Shown here piece by piece: positions 9,282-64,000 of a stretch of 64,000 bases of DNA. Under the pieces are notes generated by a model that saw nothing but the letters and a program-made list of their open reading frames with translations, did no database searches and was not told the DNA's origin. Each line of letters opens with the position of its first letter. Within the stretch, counting starts at the first letter, position 1. Where the stretch lies: assembly GCF_004765785.1 (NCBI RefSeq), contig NZ_SBIT01000001.1, forward strand, positions 434,001 through 498,000, read 5' to 3'. The stretch is from Halorussus ruber. GTDB taxonomy: Archaea > Halobacteriota > Halobacteria > Halobacteriales > Haladaptataceae. A program made the position numbers and the translations under genes.

Positions 9282-9775
9282 ATCTCGCACACCATTGTGT
9301 TCTTACGGGAAGGACAGATATAGCTTTTACCCTCGTTCGGACCGCGCCGAAGTCCCTGTTCCGCGCGCGAGTCGGCGGTTTCGGGACTCGATTCGCCTCA
9401 CAGAACACCTCTACATTTGCTAAGAACAATTATTTATTTGTTTAGAAATTGTTTTTATTTCTTTCTGGTGGTGGTTCACTCGACGGAGCCAACCCGTGAC
9501 CGCCACCGCGCCCCGTGCCTCCTCGCCCGCCTTGCGCTCACTTCGTTCGCGCAGGACGGCCGCGACCCGATGACTAGCACACCGGTCGCGTCCGGTAGAT
9601 GGTCACGCCGACCGCACCCCGTCGATTTCCACAACGACCGCGTCCCGCGAACCGGGAAAATCCACGACGCTCGGTTGCTCGGCGAGGACCGCGAATCCCC
9701 GTCGTCGGCACCAATTCCGTCAAACTCCCGTGCCGTGTCAAAAACTGTTTATCGGCAGGAGGCTACAGTCCGGGT
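9282..9775. other. Gene-free stretch with A+T-rich island
   Basis: No gene is supported. Bases 9415-9472 are very A+T-rich (gctaagaacaattattta, gtttagaaattg) and resemble other islands in the window. Bases 9495-9570 hold G+C-rich sequence similar to intergenic repeat fragments (gcgctcacttcgttcgcg). The frame of the MBL gene stays open upstream to 9599, but the protein begins convincingly at 9776. Confidence 0.55.
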
Positions 9776-10765
9776 ATGTTCACGCGGCTCTCGATACCGA
9801 CGCCGTTCCAGGTCGGCCCAGTCAACGCCTACCTCGCCGGGCGGACGCTGGTCGACCCCGGACCGGGAAGCGAGGAGGCGTGGGCGGCCCTGCTCGACGG
9901 CCTCGAAGCCCGCGGGCTGGGACCGACCGACGTGGAACAAGTGCTTGTGACCCACCCGCATCCGGACCACTTCGGACTGGCGAGCCGACTCCGCGAGGAG
10001 GGGGCGCGAGTCGTCGCCAGTCCGACCACCGCGGAGGTCATCGCCGACTTCGGCGCGCGACTCGACTACGAGCAGTCGTACTTCGTGGACATGTTCGAGC
10101 GCCACGGGATGGCCCGCGAGACTGCCGAGACCGTCACCGACCTGCCCGAGGTCTTCCTCAAGGTCGCGCCCGGCGTCGAGACTGACCGCCGACTCGAAGA
10201 CGGCGAGACCGTCGAGGTCGCGGACACCGGCGTCACCGCCGAGGCCGTCCAAGGTCACGCACCCGGCGAGACCATCTTCACCTTCGAGACCGACGCCGAG
10301 TTGCGGGCCATCGTCGGCGACCACGTGCTGGCCGACATCACGCCCAATCCCCTGCTCCAGCCGCCCGTTCCCGAGGAGAGCGCGTCCGGCGCGGGAGCCA
10401 GCGCCCCGATACACGGCGAGCGCCCGCGGGTCCTCCCGGCGTTCAACCGCTCGCTGGCGACCCTCCGCGACCGGGAGTTCGACCGGTTCCTGCCGGGCCA
10501 CCGCGAGGAGATTCCGAACCCGACCGAGCGCATCGACCAGATTCTCGACGCCCACGAGGAGCGCACCGAGAACGTCAAGGAAATCGTCGCGGACGGCCCG
10601 ACCACCGCGGTCGAGGTCATGGAAGAGCTGTTCAACGACCTGCCCGCGACCGAGTACTTCTCGGGCATGAGCGAGGCGGTCGGCCACCTCGACGTGCTGG
10701 ACGAGCGCGGCGAGGTAGACGCCCGCGAGCAGGGTGGCGTGGTCGTCTGGGAGGTGGCGGCGTGA
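9776..10765 (+). CDS. MBL-fold metallo-hydrolase with C-terminal helical domain
   Basis: The 329-residue protein carries the zinc motif THPHPDH (residues 59-65, the HxHxDH signature), then a metal-ligand region (VQGHAPGETIF, VGDHVL) and LPGHREE near the end of the catalytic domain. A winged-helix-like tail (FNDLPATEYFSGMSEAVGHL) follows. This tail type occurs in LACTB2/glyoxalase-II-like haloarchaeal proteins. Substrate unknown, probably a thioester or phosphoester. Its TGA overlaps the GTG of the adenine deaminase (GTGA), so the two form an operon. Confidence 0.85.
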   Translation: MFTRLSIPTPFQVGPVNAYLAGRTLVDPGPGSEEAWAALLDGLEARGLGPTDVEQVLVTHPHPDHFGLASRLREEGARVVASPTTAEVIADFGARLDYEQSYFVDMFERHGMARETAETVTDLPEVFLKVAPGVETDRRLEDGETVEVADTGVTAEAVQGHAPGETIFTFETDAELRAIVGDHVLADITPNPLLQPPVPEESASGAGASAPIHGERPRVLPAFNRSLATLRDREFDRFLPGHREEIPNPTERIDQILDAHEERTENVKEIVADGPTTAVEVMEELFNDLPATEYFSGMSEAVGHLDVLDERGEVDAREQGGVVVWEVAA

Positions 10766-12498
10766 ACGACCTCCAGTCGGTCGCGCTCGGCGACGAGACG
10801 GCCGACCTCGTCATCACGGGCGGTCGGGTCTGCCTGCCCGAGAAGGGCGAGTTCCAGTCCCGGGACGTGGTCGTGGTGGACGACCGAGTCGCCGCGCTCC
10901 CCGAGGACGCCGACCCCGTCGTCGGCGAGGAGACGCAGGTCATCACCGCGAGCAACCGGGTCGTCGCGCCGGGGTTCGTGGACGCCCACACCCACCTCGA
11001 CCTCCACCAGACGTTCGAGAACGCGTACCACTACGTCGTGGAGGGCGGCACCACGACCGTCGTCTCGGAGGTCACGGGCTACGGCCCGGCCTTCGGCGCG
11101 GAGGGCGTCGAGCAGTTCCTCGCCGCCACCTCCTACCTCCCGGTCCGGGTCCGAGCAGTCGTCCCGCCCCAACCCCTGCTCGACACCTTCGAACCCCCGC
11201 GAGACGAGGGCGAGGACGCCGAGGCGCTCGTGGACCTCCTCTCGGACGACCGCGTGGTCGGGGTCGGCGAGACCGACTGGATTCACGCGGTCGGCCGGGA
11301 CACCCCCGCGGAGCGCCTCTACGAGCGCGCCGACGCCGAGGACAAGACCGTCTCGGGCCACGCCGCGGGCTGTTCGGGCGAGAAGCTCTCTGCGTTCGCC
11401 ACCATCATCGACGACGACCACGAGGCCATCTCCGGCGAGGACGTCATCGAGCGCGTCGAGAACGGCATCCACGCCATCGGGCGCTACGGCTCGATTCGTG
11501 ACGATATGGAAGCCATCGGCGAGGCCTACCCCCACGTCCCGACCGCGGAACTCTCGCTGTCGACCGACGGGATGTGGCCCCGCGAACTCATCGGCGAGGG
11601 CTACATGGACGTGGTGGTCCGCCGGGCCATCGAGGAGGGCGTCGAACCCGCGGACGCCATCCGGATGGCGACCCTGAACCCGGCCCGCCACTTCGGACTG
11701 GCCGAGGAGGGAGTCGGGTCCCTGTCGCCCGGAAGCGTCGCGGACATCGTCCTCATCGACGACCTCGACACGGTGAACGTCACCACGGTCGTCTCCGGCG
11801 GCGAGGTCGTCTACAACAAGGGCGAGTCGAAGGTCGCGCCCCGGACCCACGAGTACCCCGACCGCTTCTACGACTCGGTGAACGTCTCGACCGACCCCGA
11901 ACAGTTCCGGGTCCCGGCCGACGCCGCGAACGACGACGGCGAGATTCGGGCGGTCGAGTACCGCGGCGGCCTCCTCTCGGGCGAAACCGTCGTCTCTCCT
12001 CCCGAGGAGGACGGCGAACTCGTCGCCGACCCCGAGGAGGACCTCCTGAAGGCGACCCTGCTGGACAGGCATCCCAAAGGCGATGGAACCGGATTCACCG
12101 GGTTCGTCACCGGCCTCGGCCTCGACTCGGGCGCGGTCGCAACCAGCGTGGTCTGGGAGACCACCGGCGTCCTCGCAGTCGGCACCAACGACGAGGACGT
12201 GCGGACCGCGGTCTCACACGTCGAGGAGATGGGCGGCGGCTGGGCCGTGGTCGAGTCCGGCGAGGTCGTGGCGGAACTCCCGACGAGAGTCGCGGGCGTC
12301 TGCTCGGACCTCGAAGTCGAGGAGACCGCGAAGCTCTACGACGCCGTCGAATCCGCGCTCCGGCGACTCGGTGCCGAGGGCGACCGGCCCATGCTCGCGG
12401 TCCAGACGATGACCTTCCCCGGCGTCCCGCAACTCAAGTTCTCCTTCTCGGGCTACGCCGACATCATGCACCGTGAAATCGTCGGGCTGAAGCCCTGA
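10762..12498 (+). CDS. ade: Adenine deaminase
   Basis: The 578-residue amidohydrolase converts adenine to hypoxanthine in purine salvage. The first metal site is DAHTHLD with His76 and His78. Other ligands are in VGETDW and SGHAAG, and the catalytic acid region is LSTDGMWP. The second half holds the adenine-deaminase-specific C-terminal domain ending in a GYADIMHREIVGLKP tail. The length fits bacterial and archaeal AdeC (about 550-600). GTG start overlapping the MBL gene by 4 bases implies coupled translation. Confidence 0.92.
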   Translation: MNDLQSVALGDETADLVITGGRVCLPEKGEFQSRDVVVVDDRVAALPEDADPVVGEETQVITASNRVVAPGFVDAHTHLDLHQTFENAYHYVVEGGTTTVVSEVTGYGPAFGAEGVEQFLAATSYLPVRVRAVVPPQPLLDTFEPPRDEGEDAEALVDLLSDDRVVGVGETDWIHAVGRDTPAERLYERADAEDKTVSGHAAGCSGEKLSAFATIIDDDHEAISGEDVIERVENGIHAIGRYGSIRDDMEAIGEAYPHVPTAELSLSTDGMWPRELIGEGYMDVVVRRAIEEGVEPADAIRMATLNPARHFGLAEEGVGSLSPGSVADIVLIDDLDTVNVTTVVSGGEVVYNKGESKVAPRTHEYPDRFYDSVNVSTDPEQFRVPADAANDDGEIRAVEYRGGLLSGETVVSPPEEDGELVADPEEDLLKATLLDRHPKGDGTGFTGFVTGLGLDSGAVATSVVWETTGVLAVGTNDEDVRTAVSHVEEMGGGWAVVESGEVVAELPTRVAGVCSDLEVEETAKLYDAVESALRRLGAEGDRPMLAVQTMTFPGVPQLKFSFSGYADIMHREIVGLKP

Positions 12499-17748: not shown

Positions 17749-18543
17749 ACCCCTACGGTTCTTCGCAGGATATTAAATGCTTGACCTTCCGATTTCGTGA
17801 TGAGACCTCCGGAGATTTTGGTCGGCGAATCGTGAAGGAAATTTAATTGTTTTCCTAATATGTGTATTTGATTGTTTAGGAAATGTCTGGGTATGTCTCG
17901 CAGTCGAACTCCCGGCAGATGGTTCTCGGACCACGTTTCAACTCGGAGGAAGGATGGTTCGATGTGACGCCGAGCGACAACGGAGGCCGTGGTGGTGTCT
18001 TCTGAAGCCCCGCCAGCTCTATCTCGGCGTGATTCGAACGCGAACAGTAGAGTTGGAGTGATGATGTCTTCTTGAAGCCCCCGCCCGCTCGCGGTCGCTG
18101 GCCGACATATCCGCTCCTCTCCGCACCGGAAGACAACCCGCGTCTTCCGAGCCTCGCCTCACTCCGTTCGGTGAGACACCGCCCGTCGCGGATAGGGGCC
18201 GCCCAGCGACCAAGCCCTTCGGGCGCTGGGAGACGAACCGCGTCTCCCAAGGTCACGTTCGCACCGGAAGACAATCCGCGTCTTCCGAGCCGTCACCTCA
18301 CTTCGTTCGGTGAGACTCCGCTCACGTGACCGCGACCGGGCGGCCCCTTCAGCCCCCCGTCGGTTGTTTCACCGAGCGCATCCCGGCGGTTGGTCGGCCG
18401 GGCGCGTCCTGTCGGAAGGTCCACCGAGCGCGACCGCCTCAGACCGGACGCGCCGCGTCGGTCTCCGACGCGGCGCGTCCGTCTGCCATCTGACACCATC
18501 TTCCTCCCGAAACCTAAGTGGAGTCCCGTCGTATCGGAGTTTC
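17749..18543. other. Long gene-free stretch holding repeat copy A
   Basis: Bases 17825-17885 form an A+T-rich island (aaggaaatttaattg, gtttaggaaatg). Bases 17999-18440 are a large minus-strand copy of the dispersed repeat. Several open frames run through it, but their peptides are low-complexity and track the repeat, so I do not call genes. The promoter of the serine hydrolase should lie within 18490-18543. Confidence 0.6.
17999..18440 (-). repeat. Dispersed modular repeat, copy A (longest)
   Basis: Read on the minus strand: tandem arms near 18375-18440 (gcgcccggccgaccaaccg), the box ctgaaggggccgcc (about 18339-18352), hairpins with ggtcac-type and ggaagac-type arms at 18265-18287, 18228-18248 and 18127-18149, and the end box gggggcttcaagaa (18069-18082). 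A second partial end box (ggggcttcagaag) lies at 17999-18012. Confidence 0.75.
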
Positions 18544-36441: not shown

Positions 36442-36545
36442 GGGGCGCGCTCGGTGGACCAAACCACGAGGATGCGCTCGGCCGACCAACCGCCAGCGAA
36501 AGCCCGATGACACAGTCGATGTGGGCGGGGGCTTCAAGAAACGTT
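36442..36545 (+). repeat. Dispersed modular repeat, copy B (short form)
   Basis: Tandem arms gcgctcggtggaccaaac and gcgctcggccgaccaacc (36444-36492) are followed by the end box gggggcttcaagaaacgtt (about 36526-36544). The middle hairpin module is missing. It lies between DUF5820 and UPF0179. Confidence 0.75.
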
Positions 36546-36674
36546 CACGACTATGATTCTGCGGTCAGGATTCGATATTCCGGGAGTACCAGTATCCAAA
36601 CAAGCGTTTTCCAATCCGTCCTCTCACTCTGTCGTGACGAGAGCCTTAACCCGGAGGCCCGCATACGCCCCGTC

Positions 36675-39228: not shown

Positions 39229-39275
39229 CCTCCCGGCCATGACGGGCGAGGATTCCCGCGTTGGGATATTGTGGT

Positions 39276-40499
39276 TTACGACGTGACGTGTTCTTGAGGT
39301 GCAACCGCACCAGTTTCCTTGTCAAACAGGTACGTCGATGGCTGTGCCAACCAGCCGTTACTCCTATCTCCCCCATCACAGGCGAGACTCGGAGATACTT
39401 TCTGTCGAATGTTCTCAGCACCGTTCACGTCTGCGTTTGCCACCGTCCCGCAGCTATCACACACGTACAATCCGCGTTCAATTCGGTTCGCATCACATTT
39501 CTGACCACAGTACGAACACGACTTCGACGTATCGCGCTCAGACACCTGCTCAACCTCGATACCTTCCATCTCTGCTTTGTACGTCAGCAGGTTGGTGAAG
39601 CGGTCGAACGCCCACGAATGCAGGTTGAGGTTGCCGTGCTTTCCCCAGTTTTTCGACTCGCCGTTCTCCTCGTCCTCACGGATACCGGAGAGGTCGCCCA
39701 CCACAATCGTCCCGACTCCCTCCTCCACGCATCGGTCAACGATGTGTTTGGAGAGCGTGTGGAAGTAGTGGGTGCGGCGAGCCGACTTTTTGTGATTTAG
39801 CCGCGTGGCCTGTTCGGAGTCCGAGTCGTCACACCGGGCGAGACGCTTGCTGAAGTAGTAGTCGTCCTGCTTCAGACAGTTGAGTGGATACAACTCGGCA
39901 TGGCCGTCTTCGTAGGCAAGGGCGGCGAAGTTGCTGATACCAAGGTCGATGCCCACGGTCTTCTCGCCGGGTGATTCTGACACTTCGATTTCAACTTTGC
40001 AGACGAAGTGCAGTTCCCATTCATCGCCCGTCCAGACGGCTCGAACCTGTTGGACGTTCTCCACGGTGGAGAGGTCAACGTCGGGTCTAGTTCGGTATTC
40101 ACAGAGGATGAAGTCCGACCAGTAGTTTTTGAGGTTCGAGCCTTTGGAGAGTCGGACGCGATTGTACTGGGTATCGAGTTTGAAACTCATCTGCTTGAAC
40201 GTGACTGTGCTTCGGGGATGTTCGTCGCCGTGTTTGCGGTAGCCGGGCGGGTTTGCGTTCGTGTCTCCGTTGCGTCGGTTGGCGTACCAGCCGGTGAACG
40301 CCTCAGCGAGTTCCTGAAGAACACGCTGACTTGACTGAGAATGGAGGTCATCGTAGCGTTCGTGGCTCTTGAGGTACGCGGTGAGTTCGTCGTGGTCTGG
40401 GATGTAGCCGATTTCGTCCCAGACTCGACTGATTGTCCACCGGCCGACGTTCCAGAGTTTCGAGGCTGAGAACCCGAGCGAATCCAGGTCGTCGGACAC
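39276..40499 (-). CDS. tnpB: TnpB, RNA-guided nuclease family
   Basis: The 407-residue protein has the RuvC-type first Asp in VGIDLGISN, the zinc ribbon CSYCGQKC ... CDSCG and the last catalytic Asp in NADVNGAENI. At the second acidic site it reads VVGDLSGIR, where many TnpBs have Glu before Asp-Leu. The called start is a GTG at 40499, but homologous-looking sequence continues upstream in frame (VTRTYTASIRNQPQ) back to an ATT at 40556, so the true start may be non-canonical or mutated. The associated guide RNA should overlap the 3' end of the gene and run to 39229. Confidence 0.85.
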   Translation of the reverse strand: MSDDLDSLGFSASKLWNVGRWTISRVWDEIGYIPDHDELTAYLKSHERYDDLHSQSSQRVLQELAEAFTGWYANRRNGDTNANPPGYRKHGDEHPRSTVTFKQMSFKLDTQYNRVRLSKGSNLKNYWSDFILCEYRTRPDVDLSTVENVQQVRAVWTGDEWELHFVCKVEIEVSESPGEKTVGIDLGISNFAALAYEDGHAELYPLNCLKQDDYYFSKRLARCDDSDSEQATRLNHKKSARRTHYFHTLSKHIVDRCVEEGVGTIVVGDLSGIREDEENGESKNWGKHGNLNLHSWAFDRFTNLLTYKAEMEGIEVEQVSERDTSKSCSYCGQKCDANRIERGLYVCDSCGTVANADVNGAENIRQKVSPSLACDGGDRSNGWLAQPSTYLFDKETGAVAPQEHVTS

Positions 40500-41531: not shown

Positions 41532-42257
41532 ATGATACCACTCGAAGAGGCGGTGACTGCCCGCCTCGAATCTCACGGTGAGCGGTTCGAGGTGCTGGTA
41601 GACCCCGACGCCGCGCTCGAAATCAAGCGCGGCGAGTTCGAGGGCGACTTAGAGGACGTCATCGCGGCCGAGGACGTGTTCGAGAACGCGAGTCGCGGCG
41701 ACCGACCGGCCGAGAGCGCGCTGGAGGAGGTCTTCGAGACGACCGACCCCCTCGAAATCATCCCGCAGGTTATCAAGGACGGGGAGATTCAGATCACGGC
41801 CGAACAGCGCCGCGAGATGCAGGAGCAGAAGCACAAGCAACTGATAAACCGCATCACGCGCAACGCGGTCAACCCCCAGATGGACAACGCGCCCCATCCG
41901 CCCGAGCGCATCGAGTCCGCGCTGGAGGAGACCGACTTCCGCGTAGACCCGATGGAACCGGTCGAGACGCAGGTGGACGACGCGCTGGAGGCGCTCCGGC
42001 CGGTCATCCCAATCCGATTCGACGAGGTTACAGTCGCGGTGCAGGTGCCCGCCGACTACGCCGGGAGCGCGCAGGCCAAGATTCGCCAGTTCGGCGACCT
42101 CGAACGCGAGGAGTGGCAGAACGACGGCGGCTGGGTCGGCGTGCTGACTTTCCCGGCCGGGATGCAAAACGAGTTCTACGACCTCGTGAACGAACACACC
42201 AGCGGCGAAGCCGAGACGCGCATCATCAAGGACGAGGACGACATCAGCATGCGGTAG
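41532..42257 (+). CDS. Ribosome assembly factor SBDS (Sdo1)
   Basis: The 241-residue archaeal SBDS protein has the N-terminal FYSH domain (residues 1-85), the middle helical domain (AEQRREMQEQKHKQLINRI) and the C-terminal ferredoxin-like domain. It helps release anti-association factor 6 from 60S-type subunits. The length matches the archaeal family. Followed by repeat copy C and then a convergent FUN14 gene. Confidence 0.93.
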   Translation: MIPLEEAVTARLESHGERFEVLVDPDAALEIKRGEFEGDLEDVIAAEDVFENASRGDRPAESALEEVFETTDPLEIIPQVIKDGEIQITAEQRREMQEQKHKQLINRITRNAVNPQMDNAPHPPERIESALEETDFRVDPMEPVETQVDDALEALRPVIPIRFDEVTVAVQVPADYAGSAQAKIRQFGDLEREEWQNDGGWVGVLTFPAGMQNEFYDLVNEHTSGEAETRIIKDEDDISMR

Positions 42258-42793
42258 GCCAGCGACGCGCCCGGCGGTCGCCGGGCGTGGCGCGGTCGTT
42301 TTCCGGGCGCTCGGTGTGATTTTCAACAGGGCGCACCCGGTGGGACTTTCCACCGGAGCGCGCTCGACTGACCAACCGGCGAGGACGCGCTCGGCTGACC
42401 TACTGACAAGGACGCGCTCGACCGACCAACTTCCGGGCGGGATGAAGGGGCCGCGCGCTGGCGGGCCGCAGGCCCGTGGTCGTCTCAGCGACCTCTATCT
42501 GACGCAACTACGTCCGTCAGATATGTCGCTGAGCGACCGCCAGCGCGTGGGGGCTTCAAGAAACGTTTCCCACCTCCGTTTTACCGCTCGCGCTCGGAAT
42601 CCCGCCGAGAAGCGCAAGCTACTCTAAAGTAACTATTTAATTATCTAAGAATTTCTTTTGATTGCGTAAGACAACTCTATAATTCCCTAACGACGCGCTC
42701 GGACACGACTCGCTGGTTCGAAAACCGATTCGGGAACGAAATACGCCGTCGAAAAAGCGGGGGAGTCGAGAAGCCGAACAGCCGATTCGCGGA
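42258..42793. other. Gene-free stretch holding repeat copy C and an A+T island
   Basis: Copy C of the dispersed repeat spans 42352-42571. Bases 42620-42700 are A+T-rich (aactatttaattatctaag, cgtaagacaactctataatt). The open frame at 42316-42627 follows the repeat and is not called. Confidence 0.6.
42352..42571 (+). repeat. Dispersed modular repeat, copy C
   Basis: Three tandem arms (gcgctcgactgaccaaccgg, gcgctcggctgacctactg, gcgctcgaccgaccaac), the box gggatgaaggggccgcg (42438-42454), a different middle module with tatctgacgcaactacgtcc and tcagatatgtcgctg, and the end box gtgggggcttcaagaaacgt (42547-42566). Confidence 0.78.
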
Positions 42794-52591: not shown

Positions 52592-52987
52592 CTACTCACC
52601 TGCTTGGGCGTCGATGTACTCTTCGATGACCTCGATGGACACGTTGCCCGCGCTTGAGACGAAGTACGAGCGCGTCCACAGCGAGGGCAAGCCGACGTCG
52701 AACTCGTCGCGGAGGTGGCGCGAGGAGTAGCCTTTGACCTGTTGCACGATTTTGTTTGGGGCGAGCGTGGAGTCGCCCGTGATGAACAGGTGTACGTGGT
52801 CGGAGCGAATCGCCAACTCCAGTCTCTCTAAGCCGAGTTCGGCGGCTTTCTCCTCGATGAGTGCTTCGAGACGGTCACGTACGTCGCCTTCGAGTACCGA
52901 TTTGCGGTACTTCGGACACCAGATGAAGTGGTACTGGAGTTTGTGTATGTTGGTACGCTCCCGGTCGAACCCACGAGGTACCGTCAA
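52592..52987 (-). CDS. tnpA: TnpA, Y1-HUH transposase of IS200/IS605
   Basis: From the TTG at 52987 the protein has 131 residues; further TTG/GTG starts upstream (to 53035) are possible. It has the HUH motif in HVHLFI and the catalytic Tyr region in WTRSYFVSSAG. This enzyme cuts and joins single-stranded element ends. It looks intact. tnpB begins 26 bp downstream in the same direction. Confidence 0.88.
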   Translation of the reverse strand: MTVPRGFDRERTNIHKLQYHFIWCPKYRKSVLEGDVRDRLEALIEEKAAELGLERLELAIRSDHVHLFITGDSTLAPNKIVQQVKGYSSRHLRDEFDVGLPSLWTRSYFVSSAGNVSIEVIEEYIDAQAGE

Positions 52988-53140
52988 TATACACAAATTC
53001 CCACCTAAAGATGTTACGCAATTATCCACCCCCAACCGTGGCTATGAACGGGGACAGTTTCCTCGTTGTCGGCCGCATCCCACCCGTAAACGAGTGGGAT
53101 GTCGCCTCGCTACCGCTGTAACCAGTGACTCTGCCAGTCC

Positions 53141-62370: not shown

Positions 62371-63717
62371 GTGCGCCGCCACCGGGTTATCTTCGCCGTC
62401 GTCGTCGTCCTCTGTGCCAGCACGCTCGGATACAGTTACTTCTCCTCGCCCGCCGACGCCGCGGTCACGACCTACGAGCGACAGGCCGGACTCGCGGGCG
62501 ACCAGCGGGCCTCGGTCGTCCCGCCCCGCGAGAACGTGACCGTCGTCGCCGGGCACGGCATGAAGGGCGAGTCGGCCGCGCTGGTCGCGTTCGGCCCCGA
62601 GGGAGAGGTTCTCTACCACAACGACACCTTCCACGGCTACTTCGACGTAGACCCCGTGAAGGGGACTCGGACGACCGTCGAGTACGTCGCCGAGCGCAAC
62701 TACGACGGCGACGACTGCAACGGCAAGTGTACCGTCTCGGCAGTCGAGCGCGTCAACCTCACGACCGGGGAGATTACCCGCGTCTACTCCCGCGTCATCC
62801 CGGCCGACCGAGGAGCAAACTGGCACGACGTGGACCGACTCGGCGAGAACCGCCTCCTCGTCGGGGCAATCAACACCGACGAGGCCTACATCGTCAACAC
62901 GACCACCGGGATGACGACGTGGGAGTGGTCCACCAAGCAGGCCTACCCCATCTCGGGCGGCGGCCCCTACCCCGAGGACTGGGCGCATCTCAACGACGTG
63001 GAGCGACTCCACGACGGCCGAATCATGCTGAGCCTCCGGAACCAGGACTCGGTGGTCTTCGTGGACAAGCAGACCGGCGTCCAAGAGAACTGGACGCTCG
63101 GGAGCGAGAACGACTACAGCGTCCTCTACGAACAGCACAACCCGGACTACATCAACGAGTCGAACGGCGGTCCCGCGGTCATCGTCGCCGACTCGCTCAA
63201 CGACCGCATCGTGGAGTACCAGCGCGAGGGCGGAGCGAACGGCACGGACGGTCGGTGGGTCCAATCGTGGGTCTGGTCCGACGAGGAGATGCAGTGGCCC
63301 CGCGACGCCGACCGCCTGCCCAACGGGAACACCCTGATTTCGGACACCAACAGCCACCGCGTGCTGGAGGTCAACGAGTCGGGCGAGGTCGTCTGGAGCA
63401 TCGACTTCTACGCGCCCTACGAGGCCGAGCGCCTCGGCACGGGCGACGAGAGTACGGGCGGCCCGAGCGCCGCGAAGGCCGACCTCCAATCCCGCGGAGT
63501 CGAGCGGGCCGACCACTCGCAGGAGACCACCTCGGTCGCCGGGTTCACGCCCCGGAAGGTCACCAACAGCATCGCGTTCGTCCTCCCGCTCTGGATGAGC
63601 TTCGCCGACGCGCTGGTCGCGCTGGTGCTGGTTCTGACCCTGCTCGCGTGGGCCGTCATCGAGTATCGTGACTCCTCGGTCTCGGTCGCGTTCCAGTGGC
63701 CGATTCGGCTTCGATAG
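62371..63717 (+). CDS. Arylsulfotransferase-like membrane-anchored protein
   Basis: The 448-residue protein (GTG start) has an N-terminal membrane anchor (residues 6-24), a six-blade propeller with GANWHDVDRLGENRLLVG, WAHLNDVERLHDG and WPRDADRLPNGNTLISD blades, as in AssT-type arylsulfotransferases, and one C-terminal membrane segment (about 405-430). The catalytic His equivalent is not certain. Divergent from the reductase. Confidence 0.83.
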   Translation: MRRHRVIFAVVVVLCASTLGYSYFSSPADAAVTTYERQAGLAGDQRASVVPPRENVTVVAGHGMKGESAALVAFGPEGEVLYHNDTFHGYFDVDPVKGTRTTVEYVAERNYDGDDCNGKCTVSAVERVNLTTGEITRVYSRVIPADRGANWHDVDRLGENRLLVGAINTDEAYIVNTTTGMTTWEWSTKQAYPISGGGPYPEDWAHLNDVERLHDGRIMLSLRNQDSVVFVDKQTGVQENWTLGSENDYSVLYEQHNPDYINESNGGPAVIVADSLNDRIVEYQREGGANGTDGRWVQSWVWSDEEMQWPRDADRLPNGNTLISDTNSHRVLEVNESGEVVWSIDFYAPYEAERLGTGDESTGGPSAAKADLQSRGVERADHSQETTSVAGFTPRKVTNSIAFVLPLWMSFADALVALVLVLTLLAWAVIEYRDSSVSVAFQWPIRLR

Positions 63718-63801: not shown

Positions 63802-64000
63802 CGAGCGCGCTCGGTGGAACAAACCACGGTCGAACGCTCAATTGACCAGCCGACAGGTCGCGCCTGATTGACCAACCGCCGTGGGTGGATGAAGGGGCCG
63901 CCCGGTCGCGGTCACGCGAACGAAGTGAGTGTGACCTTGGAAGACGCGGTTTGTCTTCCAGCGTTTACCGTGGTCGTCTGAGCAGGCCACTATTCGGCGT
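63802..64000 (+). repeat. Dispersed modular repeat, copy D (cut by window end)
   Basis: Tandem arms gcgctcggtggaacaaacca, tcgcgcctgattgaccaac (63808-63879), the box ggatgaaggggccgcc (63888-63903), hairpin ggtcac-15 nt-gtgacc (63910-63936) and hairpin tggaagac-gcggttt-gtcttcca (63938-63960). The end box is not reached inside the window. Confidence 0.75.

Follow-up and report, generated by a model that had tools for sequence, protein, structure and literature searches.

What kind of element is the repeat that recurs between genes in this part of the Halorussus ruber genome, and what keeps it there? The stretch of DNA analysed here (the window) covers 64,000 nucleotides (G000:C1:434001-498000) of a genome of 4.32 Mb (G000), and the original prediction, made from sequence alone, had described four copies of a dispersed repeat family in it, with shared boxes and arms, variable modules, an exclusively intergenic location, no likeness to IS ends, no coding frame and no recognisable identity. 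Most of this held. The arm units, left box and end box lie where they had been placed, the copies are found genome-wide with the same order of parts, and the family is unlike IS ends, non-coding and without an Rfam match. The intergenic location held as a mostly intergenic one, judged on crude gene calls, and the variable modules turn out to be nested hairpins. Three details needed correction: copy 1 lies on the minus strand, copy 2 lacks the left box and the palindrome, and copy 4 runs past the end of the window. What had not been seen is that a long-range hairpin, kept by compensatory changes, rises from the boxes as its base, that members of the family occur throughout a whole order, and that the hairpin is gone from one of the window copies.

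The four copies illustrate the range of forms that the element takes. Copy 1 (minus strand) has a left arm of three 26-nt tandem units (18361-18440; pattern matches at 18431, 18405 and 18379), a palindromic core delimited by sequence and pattern matches (18069-18353; left box at 18353-18340, end box at 18082-18069), and a right tail (18000-18068, assigned in the same way) with a second GGGGCTTCA box at 18011-18003. Its core carries a 5'-arm hairpin module with another module nested inside, an inner stem-loop and a tip module, and because of these inserts it matches the covariance model only weakly (18069-18244, E 2.8e-7). Copy 2 (36447-36540, plus strand) retains its arm units (36446-36526) and its end box with right tail (36527-36565), both supported by sequence and pattern matches, and is a deleted form of the element, one of two such among 30 arm loci. 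Copy 3 (plus strand) is complete, with three 27-nt arm units (42358-42440; sequence and pattern matches), a core hairpin running from left box to end box (42441-42562; model E 1.5e-26) whose predicted fold reaches -79.5 kcal/mol (z -8.15 against dinucleotide shuffles), and a right tail (42563-42600) recognised by its sequence and the tail consensus. Copy 4 (plus strand) begins with three arm units (63807-63887; sequence and pattern matches), followed by a core (63888-64000; sequence, box matches and model search) that the window truncates; its end box lies just beyond, at G000:C1:498054-498067.

Had the boxes occurred elsewhere in the genome at random frequency or without a common order, the original prediction would have been refuted; the genome-wide box search that it called for found them far above controls and in common order. 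The left box GATGAAGGGGCCGC has 83 exact sites in H. ruber (0 for the reversed control) and 123 when up to one mismatch is allowed (the reversed pattern gives 15), there are 107 sites of the end box GGGGGCTTCAAGAA (control 0), and none of the three motifs arose in 60 first-order Markov simulations of 64 kb. The order of parts is tandem 26-27-nt units, GGGTGG, left box, hairpin core, end box and a weakly conserved tail, which in some copies holds additional right arms with end box about 60-76 nt further on. Each element has two to five or more arm units, each with a small dyad, and the 30 arm loci, several of them in one array, comprise 23 with the left box, 5 with a variant frame and the 2 without palindrome. 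The element measures roughly 120 letters, simple copies being about 105-135 nt with P1/P2 inverted ends, and the core ranges from 47 to 290 nt (median 123) in 83 copies. In this set the inner stem is forward in 71 (68 by script plus three variants, L026, L035 and L046, assigned by eye), inverted in 2 (L038 and L070) and absent from 10, and a 5'-arm hairpin is found in 20 copies, a tip insert in 16 and an inverted 3'-arm module in 7. Left out of these counts were L006, L040 and L087, chance matches with no element, and L078, L086, L088 and L090, in which the box is present and the core is shortened or deleted. For the 75 copies with both neighbours called, the neighbouring genes were oriented ++ in 27, -+ in 18, -- in 15 and +- in 15, again on crude gene calls. 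Separately, a different GC-rich repeat (GAGGAGGCTGGGGAGGCGTGAGGC-like), also dispersed, directly adjoins the left arms on their upstream side in L005, L009, L010, L021, L072 and L076.

The folded copies share one architecture, which proceeds from P1 through a GGG/GGG internal loop to P2, then past a side hairpin or bulge to P4 and P5, and finally through a CnC/T internal loop and P6 to the tip. P1 is either TGAAG/CTTCA or GAAAG/CTTTC, P5 is variable, and TAT/ATA stands at the CnC/T internal loop; the arms of the inner stem differ among the window copies yet remain complementary. The covariance model (R1) was trained on 32 simple H. ruber copies, with L053, L085, L046 and L061 excluded, and covariation was assessed on 69 matches from other genomes (67 distinct), none of which had served in model building. 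Across these 67 copies, 96.8% of cells are paired as against 82.2 in shuffled controls, 24 of 34 pairs show change on both sides (14.1 shuffled), and cells with change on both sides number 277, compared with 65.7 +/- 6.3 in shuffled and 21-46 in slid versions. As the alignment was fitted to the model structure and the sequences are related, the shuffled and slid comparisons overstate the effect somewhat; the slid controls preserve relatedness, yet remain far below the observed covariation. The shape of the hairpin is conserved by compensatory change while its letters vary, and the mismatched GGG/GGG and CnC/T loops are retained across the order beside adjacent stems that vary. Mismatches on the plus strand favour G-T over A-C in the H. 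ruber copies (47 vs 21, p 0.001) and in other genomes (34 vs 14, or 24 vs 14 with the outermost pair removed, p 0.07). It is possible that this excess marks the plus strand as the folding strand, and it cannot separate RNA from single-stranded DNA. One copy, L046 (G000:C6, near 171636), has its CnC/T internal loop fully paired, as expected from arm-to-arm correction.

How far does the family reach? At E <= 0.001 the model finds matches in 17 of 18 Halorussus genomes, from a single one (G014) to at least 144 in H. ruber, with none in G009; high counts per genome are lower bounds because at most 150 candidates were scored in each. Within the order, matches come from 47 of 146 genomes, representing 19 of 57 genera, with 1-11 copies per genome outside the genus, and no match was found in 69 genomes outside the order (from 80 drawn from the phylum). 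The outer frame, GGACTGAAAGGGGC, is more widespread, being present in 72 of 146 genomes and 30 of 57 genera with a maximum of 68 per genome, and its reversed control gave one match in total. The P1 type is largely species-specific: exact GATGAAGGGGCCGC occurs 83 times in H. ruber against 0-5 in its relatives, and GGACTGAAAGGGGC occurs 16 times there against 51, 66 and 60 in G011, G006 and G013. The outer frame carries either a class A insert, which is the element studied here, or a class B insert (GACGYAAGCAC ... GCGCAGCGAG). Frames in other genera are often arranged head-to-head with a spacing of about 45-51 bp, as seen at L359-L362 and in G018, which has three inverted pairs 49-51 bp apart, an inverted pairing that is not usual in H. 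ruber. A structured class B insert was also observed at L301, L302, L305, L357-L363, L365, L366, L368 and L369, often head-to-head with class A or with another B.

Whether copies have been inherited in place can be judged from orthologous sites, which BLAST of the relatives' loci against those of H. ruber resolved into 12 pairs at 10 own-genome sites. For one pair (L169/L045) only one flank aligned, and L097/L080 and L145/L044 were dropped, their sites not corresponding or the match being to a fragment only. In all 12 pairs the element lies beside orthologous genes in both species with agreeing orientation, as derived from the coordinates of the loci. Core identity is 0.834 for orthologous and 0.824 for non-orthologous pairs (permutation p 0.12), the left arm retains some kinship (0.663 against 0.624 for the others, p 0.003), and the tail gives no orthology signal (p 0.43). 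Since sites and orientation are shared while the cores are no more alike than those at different sites, the stations are inherited and their cores turn over. At the orthologous site L095/L079, the inner stem is complete in one species, and the other has a hairpin without it, so that the stem is present or absent in hairpins that are otherwise similar and whose identity as a PATE is not established. The gene at 62371-63717 of the window is a neighbour common to some relatives, where it is accompanied by one arm unit and a hairpin of about 38 nt (G002), by arm-like units only (G004 and G015) or by none (G017); this is gain or loss of the element, with no clean insertion boundary. In G012 (L164) an element adjoins a gene whose window homologue (9728-11111) has none, in a comparison limited to this one flank. 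Nothing could be learned at the SBDS gene (41532-42257), since gene order differs downstream of it.

What might move such an element is less clear. Matches to Y1_Tnp (PF01797) occur in 10 of 18 Halorussus genomes, with 7 in H. ruber, and are absent from G001, G002, G003, G010, G011 and G016, which carry 31-109 copies. Spread by a Y1 transposase is not supported, as Y1 presence does not track copy number, and the element probably does not depend on a conventional IS200/IS605 Y1 transposase encoded by its carrier. No transposase with matching ends and no mobilising gene was found, in a family search confined to PF01797, and no target duplication, integration event or excised form was noticed in the copies inspected, which was not exhaustive. 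The window itself contains an IS200-type Y1 transposase gene (52592-53035, minus strand; PF01797, E 1.7e-35) and, at 39231-39400 on the minus strand, the Rfam sense overlapping transcript RNA sot0042, beside an ORF (39276-40499) that is possibly tnpB and remains unverified.

A distinct arrangement is found on plasmids, where matches are mostly from Haloarcula (10 of 13 records in one search, 12 of 17 in another). In 8 of 10 aligned plasmid loci, L319 and L324 being those without the arrangement, a conserved TATA-like box (AATAGTATATAAA-like) lies about 260-400 nt upstream of the element on the same strand, with conserved GC-rich non-coding DNA in between; on the element's other side, four of the plasmids carry a gene annotated as SOSS-B family. 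The fold of L317:3770-4180 has a z of -2.44. Neither this upstream domain, sought in the Halorussus genomes searched, nor a clear plus-strand TATA excess upstream of the 83 Halorussus copies was found. Part of the Haloarcula upstream sequence recurs in two small plasmids, of Natronobacterium and Halobiforma, with no recognisable element there. A conserved non-coding block with GGGTGAAAGCCC (L317 3740-4000, L328 2196-2334, L329 859-1034) is common to Haloarcula plasmids and the tiny pNB101 and pHLAJ5II, and may be an RNA or replication region in its own right. Downstream of L316, the right arm and end box are tandemly repeated at steps of about 70 nt, which yields alternative partners for the left arm.

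The family thus combines a shared fold kept by compensatory changes, an order-wide spread, an expansion in Halorussus, conserved sites and core turnover, with modules that are gained, lost, nested and inverted. The best single account of these features, to which we give roughly as much credence as doubt, is a family of interspersed, non-autonomous elements that occupy old intergenic stations, exchange their cores and are recognised in folded, single-stranded form, because nesting, inversion, head-to-head pairs and core turnover amount to reshuffling at the level of DNA. In this view, a protein would recognise the folded strand, either as DNA that becomes single-stranded in the course of replication, transfer or repair or, possibly, as RNA copied from it; such recognition would select for pairing plus fixed mismatched loops and would drive both the spread to new intergenic sites and the exchange of cores between sites. 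The protein is inferred, and no enzyme has been identified. Several observations speak against this account. The shared sites favour long vertical inheritance over frequent jumping, the Haloarcula plasmid copies occupy a fixed place behind promoter-like sequence, as an RNA gene would, neither an integration event nor a target duplication nor an excised form came to light, no mobilising gene was found and several copy-rich genomes lack Y1, and the G-T excess suits RNA equally well.

Close behind, though in our judgement less likely than not, comes the main rival, namely that the element is transcribed and that the product is a structured non-coding RNA domain defined by its fold. In Haloarcula plasmids it would then form the downstream part of a longer RNA, and in Halorussus it would be a high-copy RNA or UTR element. 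There are no transcript data. The Haloarcula plasmid arrangement is the best evidence for an RNA role, although it is inferred from sequence alone and the promoter-like box is confined to these plasmids; the fold of L317:3770-4180, the strong covariation around fixed internal loops, beyond both shuffled and slid controls, and the plus-strand lean of mismatches to G-T also fit. Against it stand the lack of a clear TATA excess before the Halorussus copies, the absence of a link to gene orientation, the absence of the upstream domain from all Halorussus genomes searched, and the inverted or nested modules, head-to-head pairs and wide copy-number differences, which resemble DNA rearrangement. What acts on the hairpin is inferred under either account, and the two could conceivably both hold.

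An unlikely alternative is that these are passive palindromes, selfish or neutral DNA with no recognised fold, in which template switching and gene conversion, between arms or between copies, maintain the complementarity. This would suit the orthologous cores that are no more alike than others, the two palindrome-less copies, which resemble slippage deletions between short G-rich repeats, and the now fully paired internal loop of L046. However, correction between arms should erase the GGG/GGG and CnC/T mismatches, and both persist across the order beside changing stems; moreover, mismatches lean to G-T on one strand, and the inner stem is almost always in one orientation (71 forward to 2 inverted).

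A role in chromosome organisation or replication, with the site being bound or cut in cruciform or hairpin form, is very unlikely: such a role has been proposed for bacterial BIMEs, and the more than 100 intergenic copies in both orientations and the SOSS-B/RPA-type gene adjoining the element in several Haloarcula plasmids are in its favour, but many haloarchaeal genomes lack the element, and copy numbers within one genus that span 0 and 1 to at least 144 leave no essential structural role. Other candidates were rejected. The box counts against controls and the Markov simulations rule out a chance or low-complexity artefact; the core lengths of 47-290 and stops in the arms argue against a coding function, and the lack of gene-orientation bias and of a clear TATA excess against a terminator or promoter. 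A known Rfam RNA family is ruled out by absent matches: at gathering score the sole matches in the window, sot0042 and a tRNA, both lie away from the element, permissive scans of 8 loci detected no family on it, and no Rfam 15 family fits. An origin on phages is disfavoured by the absence of matches in a phage collection and in three viral-contig scans.

Returning to the folded-strand element, a bolder version is possible, if unlikely, namely a cassette system in which structured hairpin inserts (class A, class B or empty) are repeatedly exchanged at fixed intergenic stations. Its parts would be the outer frame GGACTGAAAGGGGC...GGGGCTTTC, present in about half of the sampled haloarchaeal genomes, and a recombinase that reads single-stranded structure, which has not been identified; by analogy, it may be an archaeal counterpart in principle to integron attC chemistry. 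An element missing from the catalogues, with a very clear covarying fold and a home between archaeal genes, thus reaches at least 144 copies in one genome and 19 of 57 sampled genera of the order, its outer frame 30 of 57. If the folded strand is what is recognised, it would point to an archaeal system, of recombination or of RNA, that has so far escaped notice. With many copies, sites shared between species and cores turning over, the element offers a direct test.

How does it compare with known systems? No description of it was found in the open-licence PMC literature searched (subscription papers were outside the scope), the sole close analogue being that of PMC3119063. Its nearest relatives in kind, by analogy, are likely the haloarchaeal SMR-A and PATE elements and bacterial REP/REPIN, with SMR-A the closest. 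SMR-A elements of Haloquadratum walsbyi (HqIRS42, 43 and 55) are about 110 bp long with inverted ends, occur in dozens of copies with no target duplications reported, and sit inside PATE/IS605 palindromes, their mobilisation being unknown (PMC3119063). The simple copies of our element match this size and the inverted terminal repeats, and they too occur in dozens of copies with no target duplication noticed; the inner stem that is present or absent inside otherwise similar hairpins may parallel the lodging of SMR-A in palindromes of other elements. This is a likeness of kind only, with no sequence comparison. They differ in that the host of SMR-A is a PATE/IS605 palindrome, whereas here the host frame itself belongs to the family, and the relevant sections of PMC3119063 describe no branched fold with fixed loops and covariation across an order. 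PATEs are likewise transposase-free palindromic haloarchaeal elements whose cores are lost by deletion (PMC3119063), but they have palindromes near both ends and a terminal oligonucleotide in place of one large central hairpin. Like REPs, BIMEs and REPINs, the element is a tagged imperfect palindrome between genes in many copies (PMC3733652); the inverted pairs frequent among REPs have a counterpart in other genera but are not usual in H. ruber. REPs, however, measure 20-40 bp and carry GTAG or CGTC tags (PMC3733652), a definition of tag and size that is not met by an element of about 47-290 nt with a GGACTGAAAGGGGC or GATGAAGGGGCC tag (TGAAG/GAAAG plus GGGG), and some carriers lack any Y1 gene, unlike the REP/RAYT pairing. 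REPs have been reported in archaea (PMC12306157), in a paper whose main text contains no word starting with "halo". Finally, integron attC sites are folded strands whose unpaired positions are conserved and whose paired sequence and tip vary. Although neither attC boxes nor cassette arrays were seen at the element, it too has a fold in which unpaired positions are conserved while the pairing and the tip vary.
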